Assembly (NCBI GenBank): GCA_019186825.1
Contig: JABARP010000012.1
Span: 197,532-261,531, forward strand
Reading direction: 5' to 3'
DNA from: Pyrinomonadaceae bacterium
GTDB lineage: Bacteria > Acidobacteriota > Blastocatellia > Pyrinomonadales > Pyrinomonadaceae
DNA: 64,000 nucleotides
A program made the position numbers and the translations under genes. Positions 18,887-28,623 of the stretch are shown here, in pieces. Under the pieces are notes generated by a model. It had not been told where the DNA came from and ran no database searches. It worked only from the letters and a program-made list of their open reading frames with translations. Each line of letters opens with the position of its first letter. Positions within the stretch are counted from its first letter, which is position 1.

Positions 18887-18894
18887 GTTGCTTG

Positions 18895-19332
18895 ATGAAC
18901 AAGTCCTTCCGCATCGGTGAAGTTGCGGAGCGCTGCGACGTCAGCATCGACACGGTCCGGTATTACGAACGCCGCAGGCTACTCCCGGAAGCGCCGCGGA
19001 CCGCGGGCGGATATCGCCTGTTCGGTTCGGAGGCGATCGAACGCATCACCTTCATCAAGCAGGCACAGGATCTCGGTTTCACGCTGGAGGAGATCTCGAC
19101 GCTTCTTTCGGCCGATGGGACGAGCGATTGCCGACACGTCCACGACCTGCTCGACGTGAAGCTGGCGGACCTGGACGCGCGGTTGAAAGCGATGCAAGCG
19201 TTTCGCCGAAAACTCAAGCATTACCTCGACGAATGCGAGGTGGAATTGAAGGAGCATCCTAACTCGGAGGAATGTCCGGTCATCGATGAAATAGCACACT
19301 CATCCCGAGCTGATCACAAATTGAAGTACTAA
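18895..19332 (+). CDS. merR: MerR-family metal-responsive activator, mercury type
   Basis: 145 residues from ATG 18895 (a TTG one codon earlier is in frame). The winged helix reads FRIGEVAERCDVSIDTVRYYE and is followed by a dimerisation helix and a C-terminal metal loop. Three cysteines, C79 (DGTSDC), C114 (LDEC) and C127 (EECPVI), sit where MerR proteins bind Hg(II): one from one subunit and two from the other. This and the MerT-MerP fusion downstream support mercury. Other divalent metals (Pb, Cd) cannot be excluded. Its own long-spacer promoter lies directly upstream and would drive the whole module. Confidence 0.88.
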   Translation: MNKSFRIGEVAERCDVSIDTVRYYERRRLLPEAPRTAGGYRLFGSEAIERITFIKQAQDLGFTLEEISTLLSADGTSDCRHVHDLLDVKLADLDARLKAMQAFRRKLKHYLDECEVELKEHPNSEECPVIDEIAHSSRADHKLKY

Positions 19333-19343
19333 ATGACGCAATA

Positions 19344-19979
19344 ATGAATGAACTATCAGTTATGAGAAAAGAGAACGTATTAATGGGAGGCGGAGTCGCA
19401 GCGGCAATCGTCTCTAGTCTTTGTTGCATTTTGCCGTTGATCGCCGCTACTCTTGGCATCGGAAGCATCGGCATCGCGTCGGCTTCTGAAACGTTGCGAC
19501 CATATTTGTTGGTATTGGCGTCCGCGGCCCTCGCCTATGTATTTTACCGTGTTTATTTTCGCCGAGAGGAATGTGCTCCGGACGACAGTTGTGCCTCTAA
19601 GCCGGTCGATAAGATCAACCAGATCTCGCTTTGGATGGCGACTGCGGTTATAGTCGCGTTCGCACTAGCACCGTACTACACCGGCTATATCGCAGCGGCA
19701 ATCACCGCGCCGCGCCTTCCAACGACCGCATCCGCACCTGTTATCGCGCCGCCGCCGGATGAGTCTTCTTCTAAAAACACTATTGTCCTTAATGTACGCG
19801 GTATGACTTGCGACGCTTGTGAAACGCACATAGAGGTCCCGCTCAGAAGGCTGCATGGCGTTGCCTCGGCCGACGCCGATTATAAAAAACATAACGTGAC
19901 GGTCGTTTACGATCCCGCACAGGTCACGGTTGAGAGGATCAAGGAAACGATAACAGCGACTGGTTACGAGCTAATCTGA
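19344..19979 (+). CDS. MerT-MerP fusion mercuric ion transporter
   Basis: 211 residues. The N-terminal part is a MerT-like membrane protein with the vicinal pair in TM1 (SSLCCILPL, C27-C28) and a second pair on the loop (C77, C83). A third helix leads to a Pro/Ala-rich linker, and the C-terminal 65 residues are a MerP-type HMA domain with GMTCDACETHIE (C156, C159). Hg(II) would be passed from the HMA domain through the Cys pairs into the cytosol. MerT and MerP are separate proteins in Tn501-type operons; fused forms are known in some lineages. It lies 11 bases after merR. Confidence 0.88.
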   Translation: MNELSVMRKENVLMGGGVAAAIVSSLCCILPLIAATLGIGSIGIASASETLRPYLLVLASAALAYVFYRVYFRREECAPDDSCASKPVDKINQISLWMATAVIVAFALAPYYTGYIAAAITAPRLPTTASAPVIAPPPDESSSKNTIVLNVRGMTCDACETHIEVPLRRLHGVASADADYKKHNVTVVYDPAQVTVERIKETITATGYELI

Positions 19980-19985
19980 ATAAGC

Positions 19986-21338
19986 ATGGGAGACCATAAC
20001 TTTGATCTCGTCGTGATCGGAACCGGAGCGGGCGGGTCAACCGTGGCGCATAAATGTCGGAAGGCGGGCTGGAACGTCGCGATAGTCGATTCCAATCCGT
20101 TCGGCGGCACATGCGCGTTGCGTGGATGTGATCCTAAAAAAGTACTCGTCGGCGCCGCCGAGCTTATCGATTGGAATAGCCGCATGAAGGGAAAAGGCTT
20201 TTCCGCTAATGTGGAGATCGACTGGCAGCAGCTAATGGAGTTCAAGAACACTTTCACCGGGCCGGTTCCCGCAAGCACAGAAACGACATTTACAAAGGCG
20301 GGTATTGCCACGTTTCACGGTCGCGCGCGTTTACTCGATAAGACGATCGTTAAGATCGGTGCGGACACGCTGATAGGTCGACACATCCACGTTGCTGCCG
20401 GAGCTAAACCGGCCGTCTTGGGGATCGCGGGCGAGGAACATTTCACGACGAGCACCCAGTTTCTTGAAACCCAACAACTTCCGAAGCGGATCATTTTCAT
20501 CGGGGGCGGTTACATCTCTTTTGAATTCGCGCATGTCGCTGCGCGGGCCAACGCGAAGGTTCGAATCGTTCATCGTGGAACCCGTCCGCTCGAAGGTTTC
20601 GATTCGGACCTTGTGGACACATTGTTGCGGGCGACACGGGACTTGGGCGTCGAAGTCAATTTGGGCGCGACAGTGGAATCTGTTCGAAAGGACGGCGAGC
20701 AGTTTATCGTAACCGCGTCTACTTCCAATTCGAGCGAAACCTTTGAGGCTGACATGGTCGTACACGGAGCGGGGCGTGTTCCAGACATCGATGATATGCA
20801 TCTCGAAACCGCCGAGGTCGAGAGAGGAAAAAAGGGAATACTGGTGAATGAATTTTTACAGAGCGTCTCGAACCCGCTCGTATTTGCGGCGGGTGACGCG
20901 GCGGACGGCGGCGGATTGCCGCTTACGCCTGTCGCGACAATGCAGGGACACGTCGTAGCGAGCAACCTGCTAAAAGGTAATCATCGCCGGCCTGATTATC
21001 GTGGAATCGGCACCGCCGTTTTCACGATCCCGCCGATGGCTTCCGTCGGATTAATGGAAGATGATGCGACAAAGGAAGGCCTCGACTTCGACGTCAAGTA
21101 TGAAGACACTTCCGGCTGGTATTCGTCTAAACGGGTCGGATTGAAATATTCGGCTTATAAGACCCTGGTCGAAAAGGGCACTGGTCGAATCTTAGGGGCT
21201 CATCTTTTAGGTGCACACGCAGATGAGGCCATTAACATTTTCGCCCTCGCGATCCGTAACGGGCTAAGCGCCAAGGATTTGAAAACGATGGTCTATGCGT
21301 ATCCGACAAGCGCCTCGGACATCAGTTACATGGTTTAG
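19986..21338 (+). CDS. FAD-dependent pyridine-nucleotide disulfide oxidoreductase, MerA-related
   Basis: 450 residues. FAD-binding GTGAGGSTVAHKC begins the protein; the redox pair is FGGTCALRGCDPKK (C43, C48); a second Rossmann motif FIGGGYISFEFA binds NAD(P)H; and VFAAGDAADGGG closes the FAD site. It matches the glutathione reductase/MerA superfamily and sits in the mercury module. However, the C-terminus (YPTSASDISYMV) lacks the vicinal CC pair that MerA uses to take up Hg(II), and there is no N-terminal HMA domain. It may be a divergent mercuric reductase, or reduce a different disulfide or selenylsulfide, for example in the thioredoxin-like protein downstream. Confidence 0.85.
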   Translation: MGDHNFDLVVIGTGAGGSTVAHKCRKAGWNVAIVDSNPFGGTCALRGCDPKKVLVGAAELIDWNSRMKGKGFSANVEIDWQQLMEFKNTFTGPVPASTETTFTKAGIATFHGRARLLDKTIVKIGADTLIGRHIHVAAGAKPAVLGIAGEEHFTTSTQFLETQQLPKRIIFIGGGYISFEFAHVAARANAKVRIVHRGTRPLEGFDSDLVDTLLRATRDLGVEVNLGATVESVRKDGEQFIVTASTSNSSETFEADMVVHGAGRVPDIDDMHLETAEVERGKKGILVNEFLQSVSNPLVFAAGDAADGGGLPLTPVATMQGHVVASNLLKGNHRRPDYRGIGTAVFTIPPMASVGLMEDDATKEGLDFDVKYEDTSGWYSSKRVGLKYSAYKTLVEKGTGRILGAHLLGAHADEAINIFALAIRNGLSAKDLKTMVYAYPTSASDISYMV

Positions 21339-21345
21339 TGAATTT

Positions 21346-21585
21346 ATGATAAATGTTGCCGACAACACCGAATTCGAATCCGAAATTACATGTCCTCGGT
21401 GCGGTCACAAAAAGACCGAGATCATGCCCACGGACTCGTGCGTCTTTTTCTATGAGTGCGAAGGCTGCCAAGCCATGTTCAAACCTCTTCCCGGCGATTG
21501 CTGCGTATTTTGTTCCTACGGATCGATTCCGTGTCCGCCGAAAACGACGTGCGCGGTTTGTTCCGAACATTTACCGACGCTCTAA
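21346..21585 (+). CDS. Small Cys-rich GDCCVxC-domain protein
   Basis: 79 residues from ATG 21346, eight bases after the flavoprotein stop. It contains an N-terminal CPRCGHKK ribbon, a CVFFYECEGC segment and the signature LPGDCCVFCSYGSIPCPP, with a final CAVC. This family is often seen in mer operons, and some members replace Cys with Sec at the GDC position; here all are Cys codons. Its biochemical role is unknown; binding of Hg(II) or other soft metals is likely from the cysteine content. A second copy of the domain is fused to the gene at 21961. Confidence 0.85.
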   Translation: MINVADNTEFESEITCPRCGHKKTEIMPTDSCVFFYECEGCQAMFKPLPGDCCVFCSYGSIPCPPKTTCAVCSEHLPTL

Positions 21586-21595
21586 ACTATTAATC

Positions 21596-21973
21596 ATGGC
21601 CAGGAACATTCTCGATAAGGTCGGATCGGTCGGAGCCCTCGTGGCGGGCGCCGCGGTGCCTTGTTGTTTTCCGTTTCTCAGCCTCGCGGGATCCATCCTG
21701 GGGTTGAGTTTTCTCGCACCATACGAGAGCTACGTTCTATACGCGATGCAGGTGTTCGTGGTCGTCGCCTTGATCGGCGCGGTCGTCGCGTACCGGGGCC
21801 ATCGAAAGGTTCTTCCGTTGATCCTCGGCGTGTTGTCGGTACTGGCGGTGCTTTATTCGCTCAACGCCGGTATGAATGTCAAGATCTTGTACCCGGGTCT
21901 CGCCGGCCTCGTGGTCGTTGCGATTTGGAATTCAATTGAGGCTAGGCGTTGTGCAGAGACATGTCAGAGGTAA
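21596..21973 (+). CDS. MerC-like mercury transport membrane protein
   Basis: 125 residues from ATG 21596, with four predicted helices. TM1 carries GAAVPCCFPFLSLAGSILGL (C23-C24), the Cys pair and Pro of the MerC type, and a charged loop follows (YRGHRK). It would let Hg(II) cross the inner membrane, in addition to the MerT-MerP fusion. The final residues CAETCQR hold two more cysteines on the cytosolic side. The next gene starts inside its last codons. Assignment rests on the Cys motif, topology and context. Confidence 0.8.
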   Translation: MARNILDKVGSVGALVAGAAVPCCFPFLSLAGSILGLSFLAPYESYVLYAMQVFVVVALIGAVVAYRGHRKVLPLILGVLSVLAVLYSLNAGMNVKILYPGLAGLVVVAIWNSIEARRCAETCQR

Positions 21974-23589
21974 TGCCCGTTCTAGATCATAAGCAGGAAA
22001 CTAATACCGATAGTGTACACGAGAGTCTCTCGCACGCGGTGAGTCTGACCGTTCTGGAACTGGACGCTAACCCGCAGAAGTTGGTGCCGGCGTTTCTTCT
22101 TGCGAATCTCATGTCCCCGGCACTGTGGGATTGGCGGAACGAGAAACGCGCCGCAAACGAGCAAGGTGTCCTGAACAGCCCCCGCAACCGGTTGAATCAG
22201 ATCCAGCGATTTTTCCACCGATACACCTTCACAAACTTGCCCGATCAACCCGGCGGCGATCCGTGGGGGCTGATCTCGTTCAAAGAAGAGGAACAAAGAC
22301 TCGGTGTGGAGTTCGTTCGGAACATTCGGACCGAATACGACACAACGCTCCGACAATTGCATGTCGAGAATCCGGAGTCGCAGTTCGGCCAGATCGTGAA
22401 TGAGCCTTACTACGACCGGGGTCTTTTCCCGAGGCTCAAGAACGAAATATTAGAGGTGATGAACGCGTTCGCCACGACCAACGAGGAAGGGAAGGCTTCC
22501 GGGAAATGTTGGGGGCTCGCGGCGCTCTGGGCGGCGGCCCTGGTCGTTTGGGGCCGCTTTCCCTTGGACCAGGTGGTTATCACCGGGAATCGAGCGCATG
22601 TGTTCGTTTACCTCGACGTGGAGGACGGGCATCTGTTGAACAACACCAAATGGTTCAGCACAACGCGGATCAACAACCAGTCGGAATTGTCGGATTTTGT
22701 CAGGGCGGTTGCTTCCGGTCCGGAAACGACGTTCTTCTATAATCCGTCTTTGGGGATGTGCCATTGCATATCGCGCACTTCGCAGATTCCGCACCATCAG
22801 GTGAAAGACATCTATCGGCGAATAGGCGAGTTCGTCTCCAACCCACTAAAGCATCCCGACCCGGAACAGATTCGATACATCGAACCGTCGCACGCCGTCC
22901 CGGATCCCTTAGACCACGATTCCGCCGAGGGTTACCAGTCCGCGATCCACCAACTGGCTCGTGAATATCCGGGATCGATCTTCGAGTACGCACTTTACGC
23001 GTTCAGAAGTTTGCGCGTTCGGAACCCGGAGGTGTATATTCATGCCGCCCTGCGCGACCCTAACACCGCCGAACTGGCCGCAAAGGTAACGACGCTCGAC
23101 GATGCGTTGTCAATCGTTCACAACATCGAGGGAAATTCATCGATATTCGGGAGCCGCGACCGGATCGCCCTGCCGGATGAGGTCGTTTACTTTAATACCG
23201 GTCACGAGGCGGAAAAGGCGTTGCTTCTGTACACCTTGCTGCGTATGTCATCTATTGAAAATCTCGATAGTTCTCTTTTGCTTATGAAGGACCACAGCCT
23301 CGTGATGGTGAACGGAAGGCCTGTTTACCCGGAAAGCTACGTTTCGTTCGAACGGGATGAAAAGACGGTCGGGGCGGCCCCGACGACGATTAGCCTGAGC
23401 GCGATCATAACTTGCCCGAAGTGCGGATTCGTGAAGGCCGAACAGATGCCGACGAACGCTTGCGTCTTTTTTTACGAATGCACGAACTGCCTGGACCTCC
23501 TTAAGCCGCTCCCCGGCGATTGTTGCGTTTTCTGTTCGTACGGTTCGGTGCAGTGCCCGCCGAAAGGGGCGGGAAACGTCTGTTGTTAG
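21961..23589 (+). CDS. Transglutaminase-like domain fused to C-terminal GDCCVxC domain
   Basis: 542 residues from ATG 21961 (a TTG at 21949 is in frame); it overlaps the MerC-like gene by 13 bases. A helical N-terminus is followed by GKCWGLAALWAAALVVWGRF, then NRAHVFVYLDVEDGHLLNN. The Cys, His and Asn/Asp spacing (about C183, H213, N227/N228) fits a transglutaminase/papain-fold catalytic triad. A helical middle region follows. The last 70 residues (ITCPKCGF...LPGDCCVFCSYGSVQCPP) copy the neighbouring small protein. No signal peptide is visible. I know no described function for this fusion. A role in thiol or peptide chemistry under mercury stress is only a guess. Confidence 0.7.
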   Translation: MSEVMPVLDHKQETNTDSVHESLSHAVSLTVLELDANPQKLVPAFLLANLMSPALWDWRNEKRAANEQGVLNSPRNRLNQIQRFFHRYTFTNLPDQPGGDPWGLISFKEEEQRLGVEFVRNIRTEYDTTLRQLHVENPESQFGQIVNEPYYDRGLFPRLKNEILEVMNAFATTNEEGKASGKCWGLAALWAAALVVWGRFPLDQVVITGNRAHVFVYLDVEDGHLLNNTKWFSTTRINNQSELSDFVRAVASGPETTFFYNPSLGMCHCISRTSQIPHHQVKDIYRRIGEFVSNPLKHPDPEQIRYIEPSHAVPDPLDHDSAEGYQSAIHQLAREYPGSIFEYALYAFRSLRVRNPEVYIHAALRDPNTAELAAKVTTLDDALSIVHNIEGNSSIFGSRDRIALPDEVVYFNTGHEAEKALLLYTLLRMSSIENLDSSLLLMKDHSLVMVNGRPVYPESYVSFERDEKTVGAAPTTISLSAIITCPKCGFVKAEQMPTNACVFFYECTNCLDLLKPLPGDCCVFCSYGSVQCPPKGAGNVCC

Positions 23590-23599
23590 AGGTGTAAAT

Positions 23600-24157
23600 T
23601 TGAAACGCATTTATATCAAGATCGGCGTCGTCGCGGCGGTGCTGCTCGGGTTCGCCGCGCTTGCCCTTTATCAATTCAGCGGCGGGAGCGAGTTTTCCTC
23701 GAACGTCGGCGACCTCAAATCCCAATTCAACGAGGACAAGGGCAAGGTGAGGCTGGTGGTTCTGCTGGCCCCGACCTGAGGGCACTGCCTTCGGGGGGCT
23801 TCCGAAATTCATCAGGTTCTGATGAAGTTGAAAGATCAGGATATCGAGGTTTATTCGGTTTGGGTGCCCATCCTCCCGTCGGATTTCGAACTGACCGTCG
23901 GGCGGGCCACCAAAACGCTCCCCGACCCGCGCGTTCGTCACTACTGGGACGGCGGCGGCGAACTGGTCAAGGGCTATGCTGCCGTATTGGGGATCGACGA
24001 TCAGGCCTGGGACGTCTATCTGCTTTACGATAAAGATGCGGAGTGGAAAGACGGACCGCCGAAGCCTATCTATTGGCAGGAACAATTAGGAATATCGGAA
24101 GAAACGAAGCTGGACGGTGCGAAACTTACAGCCGAGATCAATAAACTGCTGAAATAG
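23600..24157 (+). CDS. Probable selenoprotein: anchored thioredoxin-like protein with UGHC motif
   Basis: Read through the in-frame TGA at 23777-23779, the frame gives 185 residues from TTG 23600. There is an N-terminal membrane anchor or signal (about 5-24), a linker, then VVLLAPT-Sec60-GHCLRGASE and a thioredoxin-like remainder including HYWDGGGEL and WDVYLLYDKDAEW. Sec replaces the first Cys of a CxxC site, the usual place in redox selenoproteins. Protein-like sequence continues in the same frame on both sides, and a hairpin with a G-rich loop follows the UGA. A GAGGTGT site precedes TTG. A nonsense mutation cannot be fully excluded. The start after the TGA (ATG 23822) would lack the active site. 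Confidence 0.75.
23774..23817 (+). other. Candidate bacterial SECIS hairpin
   Basis: The UGA at 23777 sits in an outer arm ACCTGA (23774-23779) that pairs with TCAGGT (23812-23817). An inner stem TTCGG (23790-23794) pairs with CCGAA (23802-23806), leaving a 7-base loop GGGGCTT 16-22 bases after the UGA. This is the place and form expected for SelB recognition in bacteria. Confidence 0.6.
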
Positions 24158-24171
24158 GTTTGTGGGGACGA

Positions 24172-24522
24172 ATGAGAACAGCCCAAAAGATCGCGAGCAT
24201 ACTCATCATCGCCCTCGGTCTCCTTCATTGCTCCTTCACGTTCCGAAACTACTACGGTATTTCGTATGAGGCGGCGTGGTTCCTAGGGACCGGCGTCGCG
24301 ATCGTGCTGGCGGGGTTCTTGAATATTGCTCTCCTCCGCACCGGAGCGCGGGACGTGGTTATCTGGACGATGGCCCTCATCGCGAACGTGTTTTTTCTAC
24401 TCGGGTTCGCCGCCTCGTCGTACATGATGCGGCAGCCGCAGGTGTTCGTGGGGGCCGCACTGTTCCTCACCGCAACGACCTACTGCTTCGTGGTCAAACC
24501 AGCTGAATCTAGGAATTGGTAA
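24172..24522 (+). CDS. Four-helix membrane protein of unknown function
   Basis: 116 residues from ATG 24172, after GGGGACGA. Four hydrophobic helices are evident (about 10-28, 36-58, 64-84, 88-110), with a Cys in the first (LGLLHCSFTF). It starts 14 bases after the selenoprotein and ends the mercury-type module. No family was recognised. It could be a redox partner or a carrier for the anchored selenoprotein; this is context only. Confidence 0.6.
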   Translation: MRTAQKIASILIIALGLLHCSFTFRNYYGISYEAAWFLGTGVAIVLAGFLNIALLRTGARDVVIWTMALIANVFFLLGFAASSYMMRQPQVFVGAALFLTATTYCFVVKPAESRNW

Positions 24523-24852: not shown

Positions 24853-24884
24853 TTGACTCAATACGCGACTACAGGGTTTATCAT
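24853..24884 (+). promoter_or_regulatory. MerR-type promoter of the second merR-family gene
   Basis: TTGACT at 24853-24858 and TATCAT at 24879-24884 are 20 bases apart. The element shares GACTACAG (24867-24874) with the promoter at 25492, at the same distance from the -35, so both are probably bound by the same MerR protein. Confidence 0.6.
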
Positions 24885-24937
24885 TGAATGGTAACCAGAA
24901 TTGCGCTGGGAATTTGTGTAACAGGGGGACAAAAACT

Positions 24938-25462
24938 ATGGCGATAAGGAAAAACACGGCGACGACGATCGTTGGTCGCACTGATCGGCTTTCGCCCCGG
25001 ACTTCGATGAAGATCGGCGAGGTTTCACAGGAATCGGGGGTAGGCGTCGAGGCCTTGAGATTCTACGAGCGCAGCGGGCTTCTGGGGAGACCCGCACGTT
25101 CGCAGAGCGGCTACCGGCTTTACGACGAGGGGGTGCTGGAGCGCCTCGCGTTCATCCGGAAGGCGCAATTCCTCGGTTTCTCGCTCGACGAGATCCGGCA
25201 CATCATCAGCGACGCCGAGAAGGGCGCGAGCCCGTGCGACAATGTCCGGGCGATCGTGCGGCGGCGCCTCGCGGAGGTGTCGGAGCGTATCAAGGAAATG
25301 CAGCGGCACCACCGGGAACTTACGCGCACTCTGGAAGAATGGGACGAGGTGGGCCGGGCACCGGGCAATATATGCGGTCTTATCGAAGGCACTCAGATGC
25401 AAAACCCATCGCCGACTAGCGTGCGCGTCACGCCGAAAAAGCAGAGAAAAAAGACGGCGTAG
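24938..25462 (+). CDS. MerR-family metal-responsive regulator
   Basis: 174 residues from ATG 24938, which has AGGGGGAC upstream; longer in-frame starts fall on the promoter. The DNA-binding head is MKIGEVSQESGVGVEALRFYE, preceded by a 23-residue basic extension. Metal-loop cysteines are C100 (GASPC) and C146 (NICGLIE). The Cys at the first position is typical of divalent sensors (ZntR, MerR, PbrR) rather than CueR, which has Ser there, although the genes it probably controls look like copper genes. A basic tail (PKKQRKKTA) ends the protein. The activator probably acts on its own promoter and the one at 25492. Confidence 0.88.
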   Translation: MAIRKNTATTIVGRTDRLSPRTSMKIGEVSQESGVGVEALRFYERSGLLGRPARSQSGYRLYDEGVLERLAFIRKAQFLGFSLDEIRHIISDAEKGASPCDNVRAIVRRRLAEVSERIKEMQRHHRELTRTLEEWDEVGRAPGNICGLIEGTQMQNPSPTSVRVTPKKQRKKTA

Positions 25463-25579: not shown

Positions 25580-25828
25580 ATGAAAGTAGCTAACGAATCA
25601 ACGAGCGAGCCGCGAAAGAATGACAATGGTTTCACGACGGTGACGGCTCCGGAAATAGTCTGCGGCGGCTGTGCGAGTTCGATCACGAAAGCGTTCGCGG
25701 ACGTCGAGGGCGTGTCCGCGGTCGAGGTGGATGTACAGACGAAAAGGGTGACGGTGCACCACGACCAGGCGACCTCGCGGGAAAAGATCGTCGAGGTGCT
25801 CGATCGCGCCGGTTATTCGGCGGAGTGA
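25580..25828 (+). CDS. HMA-domain metallochaperone (CopZ-like)
   Basis: 82 residues: a short polar lead and one ferredoxin-like HMA domain with the metal loop VCGGCASS (C28, C31) in the CxxC register. The usual Met before the first Cys is replaced by Ile-Val. It would carry Cu(I) or another soft metal to the P-type ATPase encoded 50 bases downstream. The MerR-type promoter directly upstream suggests metal induction of both. Confidence 0.88.
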   Translation: MKVANESTSEPRKNDNGFTTVTAPEIVCGGCASSITKAFADVEGVSAVEVDVQTKRVTVHHDQATSREKIVEVLDRAGYSAE

Positions 25829-25878: not shown

Positions 25879-28623
25879 ATGATTACGACGAAAACGATCG
25901 ACCCGGTGTGCGGGATGGAGATCGATCCGGCGACCGCGGCGGGGCGGAGCGAGTACGAAGGCGAAACGTTCCACTTCTGTTCCCCCGCGTGCAAGGAGAA
26001 ATTCGACGCGGCACCGGAAGAATTCGCGGGTGCGAAGGAGGTCGAGAGCGTAGGCGGCAACAAGGAAGTTAGCAATGGGTTGACCACCAAACAAGCCACG
26101 GACGGAACGCACAACGACCATTCGCTTCCGGATGGTGCGGGCCAACGGGTCGACCTGCCGATTACGGGGATGACCTGCGCGGCGTGTGCGAACCGGATCG
26201 AGAAGCAGCTGAAAAAGCAGCCGGGGGTGGACGCTTGCTCGGTCAACTTCGCCACCGCGAAGGCGACCGTCAATTACGACCCAGCCAAGACAAATGTCGC
26301 CGCCCTGGTGCAGACCGTCAAAGACACCGGCTACGACACGGCTGGGACGGCACGCGCGGAGTTTGTGGTCGACGATTCCGCGCGTCCATCCGGCTCGGGC
26401 ATCCCTCTTGAAAATCATTTGATGAAACTGGGTGGCGTCGTAAAGGCGGGTTTCAACCTCGCCACGACGACCGTCGCGGTCGACTATTTACCCAGTTCCG
26501 CGGACGTGAAAGGGATTCGGGCGGCGATCGAGGACTTCGGCTACAAGGTTCGCGAAGTGTCCGGGAATTCCGACGGGGGAGAGGATTCGCTCGAACACGC
26601 CCACGCGGAGGAGTACCGAGATCTGAAGAAGAAGTTCTGGATCGCGGCGGTGCTCTCGCTGCCCGTGCTGATCATCGCGATGTCGCACGGGACCATCGAG
26701 TTTCTCGACTTTCCCGGCGTCAACTGGCTGCAGTTGGCGCTGACCGTCCCTGTCGTTTTTTACTGCGGGGCCCAATTTTACCGCGGCGCTTGGGCGGCAT
26801 TCCGGCACCGGGCGGCTGACATGAACACCCTGATCGCGGTAGGGACCGGGGCGGCATTCATATATTCGGTCCTCGCGACCGCGTTCCCCTCGTTTTTCAT
26901 GACCGCGACGCACGAAGCAATGGGCGGGGTGGCCGGAACGATGGCGGTGCCGGTTTATTTCGAGGCGGCGAGCGTGATCATCGCCCTGATCCTGCTCGGG
27001 CGGATGCTCGAAGCGAGGGCGAAGGGCCGCACCGGCGAGGCGATCAAAAAGCTCGTCGGCCTGCAGGCGAAAACCGCCCGCGTGATCCGCGACGGGCGCG
27101 AGATCGAGATCGAAACCGAGGAGGTCGTTCCGGACGACATCGTCCTGGTGCGACCGGGCGACAAGATTCCCGTCGATGGTGTGTTGACGGAAGGTTCGTC
27201 GGCGGTCGACGAGTCGATGCTCACGGGCGAGTCTATCCCGGTTGAAAAGAAGGTCGGGGACGAAATCTTCGGCGCAACGATCAACAAGACGGGAGCCTTT
27301 TCCTTCCGGGCGACGAAGGTGGGCAAAGACACGGCACTGCAGCAGATCGTCCGGCTCGTGCAGGACGCGCAGGGGTCCAAGCCGCCCATCGCAAAGCTCG
27401 CGGACACGATCAGCGGGATATTCACCCCTATCGTGATCTCCGTCGCGATCGCGACGTTCGTGGTGTGGTTCGTCGCTGCCTCGCCGGAGGTGCGGTTCGC
27501 GATGGCTCTGGTGAATTTCGTTTCGGTGCTGATCATCGCGTGCCCGTGTGCGCTCGGCCTCGCGACGCCGACGGCGATCATGGTCGGCACGGGCCGCGGC
27601 GCAGAGAACGGCATATTGATCAAGGGCGGCGACAGCCTGGAGACCGCTCACAAGCTCGACACGATCGTCCTCGACAAGACCGGCACGATCACCAAGGGCG
27701 AACCGGCTCTCACGGATATAGTCGCGGCCGACGGTTTCGCGGAGAACGAGTTTCTAAGAATAGTCGCGTCCGCCGAAAGGCAAAGCGAACATCCGCTTGC
27801 CGCCGCGATCGTGCGCGGCGCAGAGGAACGCGGGTTGGATTTTGCCAAACCGGAAAGCTTCAACGCCCTCGAAGGGCGCGGGATCGAATCGCGGGTCGCT
27901 GGCAAAGATCTGCTGCTCGGGAACGTGCGACTGATGAACGAACGGAAAATCGGACTCAACGGCGCAGAGACGACGGCGGAGAAACTTGCAACGGAGGGCA
28001 AAACGCCGATGTTCGCGGTGATCGACGGCAAGTTCGCCGGCGTGGTCGCCGTAGCCGACACCATCAAACCGGAATCAGCGGAAGCGATTGCCTCGCTGCG
28101 AAAGCTGGGGCTGGAAGTCGTTATGATGACCGGCGACAACCGCCGAACTGCAGAAGCGGTAGCGAGCGAGGTGGGGATCATCCGCGTGCTCGCGGAGGTG
28201 CTGCCGGAAGGCAAATCGGGCGAGATCAAACGCTTGCAGTCCGAGAAGAAACTGGTGGGGATGGTCGGGGACGGCATCAATGACGCTCCCGCTCTCGCGC
28301 AGGCGGACGTTGGGATCGCCATCGGCACGGGAACGGACGTCGCGATCGAGGCGAGCGACATAACACTGATCAAGGGCGATCTGCGCGGGGTGGTCACCGC
28401 GATCGGGTTGTCGAAGGCGACGATCCGTTCGGTCAAACAAAATTTGTTCTGGGCTTTCATCTACAACGTGATCGGGATCCCCATTGCGGCGGGGTTGCTA
28501 TACCCGCTCACAGGTTGGCTGCTCTCGCCGATCATCGCTTCGGCGGCGATGTCGCTTTCTTCGGTCTCGGTGGTGGCGAACAGCTTGCGACTGCGCAAAT
28601 TCGGCGCGCCGGTGGTTGGCTAA
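25879..28623 (+). CDS. copA: Copper-type P1B-1 ATPase with N-terminal YHS and HMA domains
   Basis: 914 residues. Residues 8-52 are a YHS domain (DPVCGMEID...[12 protein letters not shown]), residues 93-155 an HMA domain with [11 protein letters not shown] (C100, C103), and residues 170-225 an HMA-like fold without its cysteines. The core has [10 protein letters not shown], translocation motif [12 protein letters not shown] (C555, C557), [11 protein letters not shown] (D599), SEHPLAAAI and [23 protein letters not shown] with these helices marks Cu(I)/Ag(I) export. It is longer than usual CopA because of the YHS domain. The separate 49-residue YHS protein at 41035 closely resembles its first domain. 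Confidence 0.94.

Follow-up and report, generated by a model that had tools for sequence, protein, structure and literature searches.

What does a TGA codon mean in the middle of a well-conserved frame that lies among mercury-type genes? The case arises in a Pyrinomonadaceae bacterium, in a 64,000-nucleotide stretch of contig JABARP010000012.1 (positions 197,532 to 261,531, forward strand) that we call the window and number from its first letter, and concerns a gene at 23600-24157 for a thioredoxin-like protein of 185 residues. Our analysis indicates that this gene very likely encodes a selenoprotein, in which UGA would be read as selenocysteine (Sec) with the help of a conserved downstream hairpin; what a selenoprotein of this kind would do beside a mercury transporter is a second question, to which two answers of similar weight are given below.

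The in-frame TGA and its family of genes

On the forward strand the frame from 23600 to 24157 is open but for a single in-frame stop, the TGA at 23777-23779, which falls in the motif APT-U-GHC at the position of the leading Cys in a CxxC pair, exactly as the first-pass annotation of this DNA had read it. The TTG start coincides with Met in a relative of 91% identity, and the preceding open reading frame (ORF) stops 10 nt 5' of it, which makes the gene part of an operon-like row. That coding sense continues in one frame on either side of the codon had also been claimed, and was borne out by comparison with the relative L084, the one pair whose synonymous distance (dS) is not near saturation, the others being saturated or nearly so: dN/dS (dN, nonsynonymous distance) is 0.039/0.15 upstream and 0.043/0.21 downstream of UGA, values that point to purifying selection on both sides. 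Against L087, where the downstream part only can be compared, dN/dS is 0.048/0.94.

Evidence on the codon also comes from its distribution among homologues. In an alignment of the window gene with 66 others, taken from 67 fetched regions, the site is TGA in 55 genes and TGT or TGC in 12, and neither TAA, TAG nor a codon for any other residue occurs, so that Sec and Cys codons are the sole occupants of the position. Two broken copies on L096 (genome G114; a TGA copy with a frame break and a TGC copy interrupted by a stop) and three fragments lacking the site were dropped before counting; also outside the 67 stand G049:C361, G137:C133 and G071:C64, all with TGA and without fetched flanks, and weak or fragmentary matches in G146 and G371. 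A separate contig search retrieved three loci, all with TGA, on contigs of G093, G095 and G088. Family matches, in Sec or Cys form, occur in 24 of the 162 genomes of the class and in 49 of 396 sampled genomes of the phylum (two of these 49 being weak or fragmentary); plasmid records contained no family match and viral contigs no confirmed relative. The nearest Cys forms among the protein-database relatives listed, P0002 and P0005, are about 60% identical. On a tree of 83 rows (the 67 genes plus 16 database Cys proteins), built by a quick method with Shimodaira-Hasegawa-like approximate likelihood-ratio (SH-aLRT) support, parsimony counts 18 Sec-Cys interchanges, at least nine of them on well-supported branches.

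Some members depart from the common pattern. Two genes on minus strands (L141 4396-4440 in G386 and L147 309-353 in G265) have two TGA codons in a UxxU arrangement, PTUPKU; a single G303 contig carries three family genes (L119, L133 and L137), two with TGA and one with TGT; and in G088 (L020 6001-6559, L087) the frame changes just before the UGA, between residues 1-50 and residues 53-187, through either decay or assembly error.

The downstream hairpin and the Sec machinery

A hairpin with a G-rich apical loop, starting 11 bases after the UGA, was part of the first-pass annotation. Its position and loop stand, the strands being TTCGG and CCGAA, and the case for it is made by comparison across genes rather than by the energy of the window sequence alone. 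Numbered from the U of UGA, with bases 14-20 set against 24-30, the 54 distinct Sec genes form on average 6.24 of the seven pairs and 34 of them form all seven, as against a mean of 2.91 and no complete stem in the 11 distinct Cys genes. Synonymous recoding of the same proteins predicts 3.92 pairs for the Sec genes, an excess of z 16.8 compared with z 0.6 for the Cys genes; a stricter shuffle, which uses the codons observed in each column, gives z 5.1. Over eight pairs of the Sec alignment A3, 84.3% of cells pair and the covariation score is 0.578, neither value being reached in any of 500 shuffles, and 70 cells are changed on both sides versus 20.3 in the shuffles (0/500 as high); the number of pairs with any double change is matched by 246 of the 500. 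Registers slid along A3 pair in 34.0 to 61.3% of cells. Stem variants include UUCGG/CCGAA, UUGGG/CCCAA, GUCGG/CCGAC, GUUGG/CCAAC and UGCAG/CUGCA. In the Cys alignment A4, 46.6% of cells are paired, a level equalled or exceeded by 20 of 500 shuffles, and minimum-energy folds of bases 10-40 contain the core stem in 41 of 55 Sec genes and in 2 of 12 Cys genes. Taken together, these comparisons indicate a hairpin that is conserved and covarying in the Sec genes and absent from the Cys genes.

Several observations nevertheless weigh against the proposed decoding. At least one of the seven pairs is missing in 20 of the 54 Sec genes, the hairpins of L085 and L086 are shifted, and the sequences of the UxxU genes L141 and L147 are at odds with the family hairpin. 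When the window RNA is folded from the UGA onwards, a competing hairpin is favoured, and the stability relative to shuffled sequences is unexceptional (z 0.41, -1.56 and -0.45); inclusion of 17 upstream bases brings z to -2.33, with the competing hairpin present there too. The consensus bacterial Sec insertion sequence (bSECIS), as set out in PMC13188914, has a small loop with G in its first two places, lies 16-37 nt from the UGA and has a minimum free energy of -7.5 kcal/mol or lower. The loop and the 16-nt spacing of the window hairpin fit this description; by itself the hairpin reaches only -5.8 kcal/mol, and bases 4-36, which form two hairpins, reach -8.1 kcal/mol. In addition, five genomes with the Sec form (G113, G118, G257, G289 and G400) show no selA over the cut-off; these are drafts of 300-750 contigs, 67-91% complete, and we read the absences as assembly gaps, although this cannot be proved.

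The machinery itself is present in the window genome, where selA (529 bits), selB (383), selD (357) and selC, a tRNA-Sec with UCA in its anticodon loop (Rfam, 65.3 bits), were all found; ARAGORN reported no tRNA on L002, the contig of the Rfam match. Neither of the outcomes that the first-pass annotation named as fatal to its reading was seen: selB and selC are present, the aligned homologues carry Sec or Cys codons at the site, and the hairpin is conserved. The selD gene (L052 1501-2424, minus strand) has an in-frame TGA of its own at CAG-U-VAK, and SelD is therefore probably also a selenoprotein. Across the 61 carrier genomes, selA exceeds its cut-off in 37 of the 44 searched for it and selB does so in the other 17. 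The Cys-form carriers without selA over the cut-off are G455 (99% complete in 2 contigs, best match 27 bits) and G126 (a piece at a contig end). Every one of the 162 class genomes has a match to the selB profile at E <= 0.001, surely because of related GTPases, and 132 of them have one over the cut-off.

The alternative is that the TGA is a true stop, and that what follows is the remnant of a pseudogene or a protein with a start of its own, as in the database annotation. Most of the database relatives listed (109 of 120) are indeed 102-129 residues long, roughly the size of the post-UGA part, and single-sequence folding shows no preference for the hairpin. This explanation is hardly credible: 55 of 67 genes share one type of stop at a single position where the others have Cys, selection is purifying before and after it, and in Sec genes the hairpin is conserved well beyond the demands of the protein; moreover, the ATG at 23822 is not retained in relatives such as L086 and L088.

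Protein fold, mercury genes and possible function

A membrane-anchored thioredoxin-like product had been annotated, and the AlphaFold2 model (pLDDT, the predicted local distance difference test, 94.4) agrees with it in predicting one N-terminal membrane helix followed by a thioredoxin fold, with the CxxC-type pair at the start of a helix as in the TlpA/ResA oxidoreductases; the domain would lie in the periplasm. The lowest Foldseek E-values belong to poplar glutathione peroxidase 5 (2p5q, 6.2e-6) and would favour a Sec peroxidase of the glutathione-peroxidase kind, a reading that we consider very improbable.

Mercury genes accompany part of the family. The 61 carrier genomes contain 25 copies of MerT (PF02411), in 22 genomes. 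Of these copies 16 have a family gene within 7 kb, against an expectation of 0.09 based on the number of bases alone; seen from the family, MerT is that close in 16 of 71 places (fragments among them), in 15 genomes. A tblastn test of the neighbours, with a hand-made set, counts 17 of 67 loci. Gene fusions point in the same direction: the family domain is joined to MerT in L097 (Sec) and L092 (Cys; 31.7 bits against a cut-off of 32.9), to HMA in L091 (Sec) and in L115, P0126 and P0145 (Cys), and to GDCCVxC in P0009 and P0127 (Cys). In L098 (6632-7627, minus strand) the frame of a Sec-thioredoxin continues into a DF-family (seleno)protein domain (84.8 bits, cut-off 70). Among 111 same-strand neighbours scanned, out of 286 called and all shorter than 700 residues, there were 6 MerR, 5 MerT, 5 zf_CopZ, 4 MerC and 2 HMA proteins, as well as 5 hydrolases, 4 PilM, 3 alanine racemases and 3 M19 peptidases. 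The link to mercury is real but partial.

In the reading that we prefer, the Sec-Cys pair of the predicted membrane-anchored protein would bind Hg(II), and the ion would probably be handed on to the MerT-type transporter encoded nearby. The whole of this account, from Sec insertion to hand-over, seems to us evenly poised between right and wrong, and capture and hand-over of Hg(II) as the principal task of the window gene stands at slightly less than an even prospect. We prefer it because two lineages have MerT fused to the family domain, much as MerT is joined to MerP-like domains in other settings, and because the cis-proline is seemingly missing: A/V-W-D stands where thioredoxins carry this residue, with Trp in 44 of 45 members and Pro at 136 in one and at 137 or 138 in none. 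The cis-proline of thioredoxin may prevent the binding of metal to CxxC, according to the atlas PMC2757866.

The same selenoprotein may instead be a ResA- or CcmG-like membrane selenol-thiol reductase that would hold the Cys pairs of MerT, HMA and GDCCVxC proteins, or those of other exported proteins, in the reduced state. Its ResA-like fold and the many family members away from mer genes speak for such a reductase, whereas the Trp at the cis-proline place is unexpected for it and the MerT and HMA fusions fit metal hand-over at least as well; we regard the reductase as a serious though not a favoured possibility, and disulfide reduction in the same pathway as quite conceivable for the window gene. 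Hand-over and disulfide reduction are close to evenly balanced. Against the preferred hand-over of Hg(II) it must be counted that the MerT of the operon already carries an HMA domain and that the closest folds are oxidoreductases of the ResA and DsbF types. It must also be counted that the cis-proline place was located by strand order in a predicted model, and that, when seven redoxins from the same genome were compared by profile, the first half of the domain alone could be aligned. Finally, MerT is absent from the 7 kb around 55 of the 71 family genes, and a mercury role therefore cannot be that of the whole family.

More tentatively still, a thioredoxin fold that has lost the cis-proline and gained selenium may have become a mercury carrier, its selenolate-thiolate pair picking up Hg(II) at the membrane to feed MerT and so doing the job of MerP with another fold. 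The family may have escaped notice while spreading through Acidobacteriota, since annotation takes its UGA for a stop.

The surrounding operon and known selenoproteins

The mer-type neighbourhood named in the first-pass annotation was recovered, with MerR, MerT-HMA, MerC and GDCCVxC proteins all present (Table 1), and by sequence the cluster reads as a MerR regulator with MerT/MerP-type transport and without a MerA over the cut-off. MerA ends in a Cys pair; the flavoprotein of the operon scores 272.4 bits against the true MerA profile (cut-off 454.45), ends in SDISYMV without such a pair and is nearer in score to glutathione reductase. The first 480 residues of the 546-residue ORF match no Pfam or NCBIfam family; by eye they show a Cys...His...Asn pattern like that of transglutaminase-type cysteine enzymes. 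ORFs related to it also precede the Sec gene in L084 and L087, and relatives of the small hydrophobic protein occupy the same place in L084, L086 and L087.

Table 1. Positions in the window of the Sec gene, its elements and the genes around it
Feature	Position	Strand	Remarks
MerR-family regulator	18892..19332	+	profile matches
MerT fused to HMA (MerP-like) domain	19344..19979	+	Pfam MerT 54.7 and HMA 61.4 bits, both over cut-off
MerA/glutathione-reductase-like flavoprotein	19986..21338	+	under each curated cut-off shown
Small GDCCVxC protein, Cys form	21346..21585	+	profile/sequence match
MerC-like protein	21596..21973	+	Pfam MerC 48.1 bits
546-residue ORF with C-terminal GDCCVxC domain (23404-23565)	21949..23589	+	ORF list and profile
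Shine-Dalgarno-like AGAGG	23588..23592	+	read off the sequence by eye
Predicted selenoprotein gene	23600..24157	+	185 residues, Sec at residue 60, TTG start, TAG stop
Codons of predicted membrane helix, residues 2-27	23603..23680	+	AlphaFold2
Predicted Sec codon, in-frame TGA	23777..23779	+	TGA in 55/67 and Cys in 12/67 family genes
Cys63, UxxC partner of Sec60	23786..23788	+	Cys in 65/67 genes, TGA in the other 2
bSECIS-like hairpin	23790..23806	+	stem 23790-23794 with 23802-23806, G-rich loop; comparative evidence
Small hydrophobic protein, right after the Sec gene	24160..24522	+	no family over cut-off
Second MerR-family regulator	24884..25462	+	profile matches
HMA metal-binding protein	25580..25828	+	profile match
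P-type ATPase ORF, CopA-like by reading	25879..28623	+	ORF list, by eye

Thioredoxin-like and mercury-linked selenoproteins are known kinds, both appearing in Table 1 of PMC13188914, a 2026 review, which also catalogues the UxxC thioredoxin-like forms. With these (Trx, PF00085; GOS_C, NF045500; SaoT, NF040730; HUIPC, NF047660) the window family shares the UxxC pair in a thioredoxin-like protein; nonetheless, NF045500, NF040730 and NF047660 match none of 45 family members at E <= 0.01, and PF00085 matches 3 of the 45 (best E 0.00054). The window protein itself scores 15.7 bits against Pfam Thioredoxin (cut-off 23.5), a Pfam scan of member 1 was empty at E <= 0.01, PDB sequences searched by profile yielded a single weak match (1a8l, E 0.02), and no Pfam or NCBIfam family covers the family. 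TlpA, ResA and CcmG resemble it in their thioredoxin fold, in the CxxC-type pair at a helix start and in the membrane anchor predicted here, and differ from it in that the family has Sec for the first Cys, Trp at the expected cis-proline and no Pfam or NCBIfam match. The mercury-linked selenoproteins (MerT with C/SxxU, UxxU NF041115, MerT/CopZ NF045683) likewise place selenium in mercury or heavy-metal transport; they have MerT or HMA folds, whereas the window family is of the thioredoxin fold, with MerT and HMA as neighbours or fusion partners, and, unlike them, the MerT and HMA domains of the window use Cys. With MerP the window protein would share the proposed hand-over of Hg(II) to MerT, and it shares MerT as a fusion partner; MerP, however, has the HMA fold, and such a domain is already present in the operon, fused to MerT. 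GDCCVxC (GOS_B, NF041374), an operon neighbour fused to the Cys forms P0009 and P0127, is a separate small domain and no homologue of the family.

A literature search by title and abstract, its scope excluding Haft and Tolstoy 2025, Haft and Gwadz 2023 and the Olavius selenoproteome, returned no paper describing the family. Nor does the family recognisably match an entry in the portions consulted of Table 1 of PMC13188914 and Table 1 of PMC9312934, or appear in the examined passages of PMC12013277, PMC2398784, PMC5029168 and PMC2757866. Within these catalogues and papers we regard the family, with its fusions and the odd residue at its cis-proline place, as new. It adds a selenoprotein family that annotation tends to cut at the UGA, and its members form a natural series of at least nine switches between Sec and Cys. 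Selenium is tied to mercury here by proximity and by gene fusion, and the idea of a selenol for Hg(II) thereby becomes directly testable.
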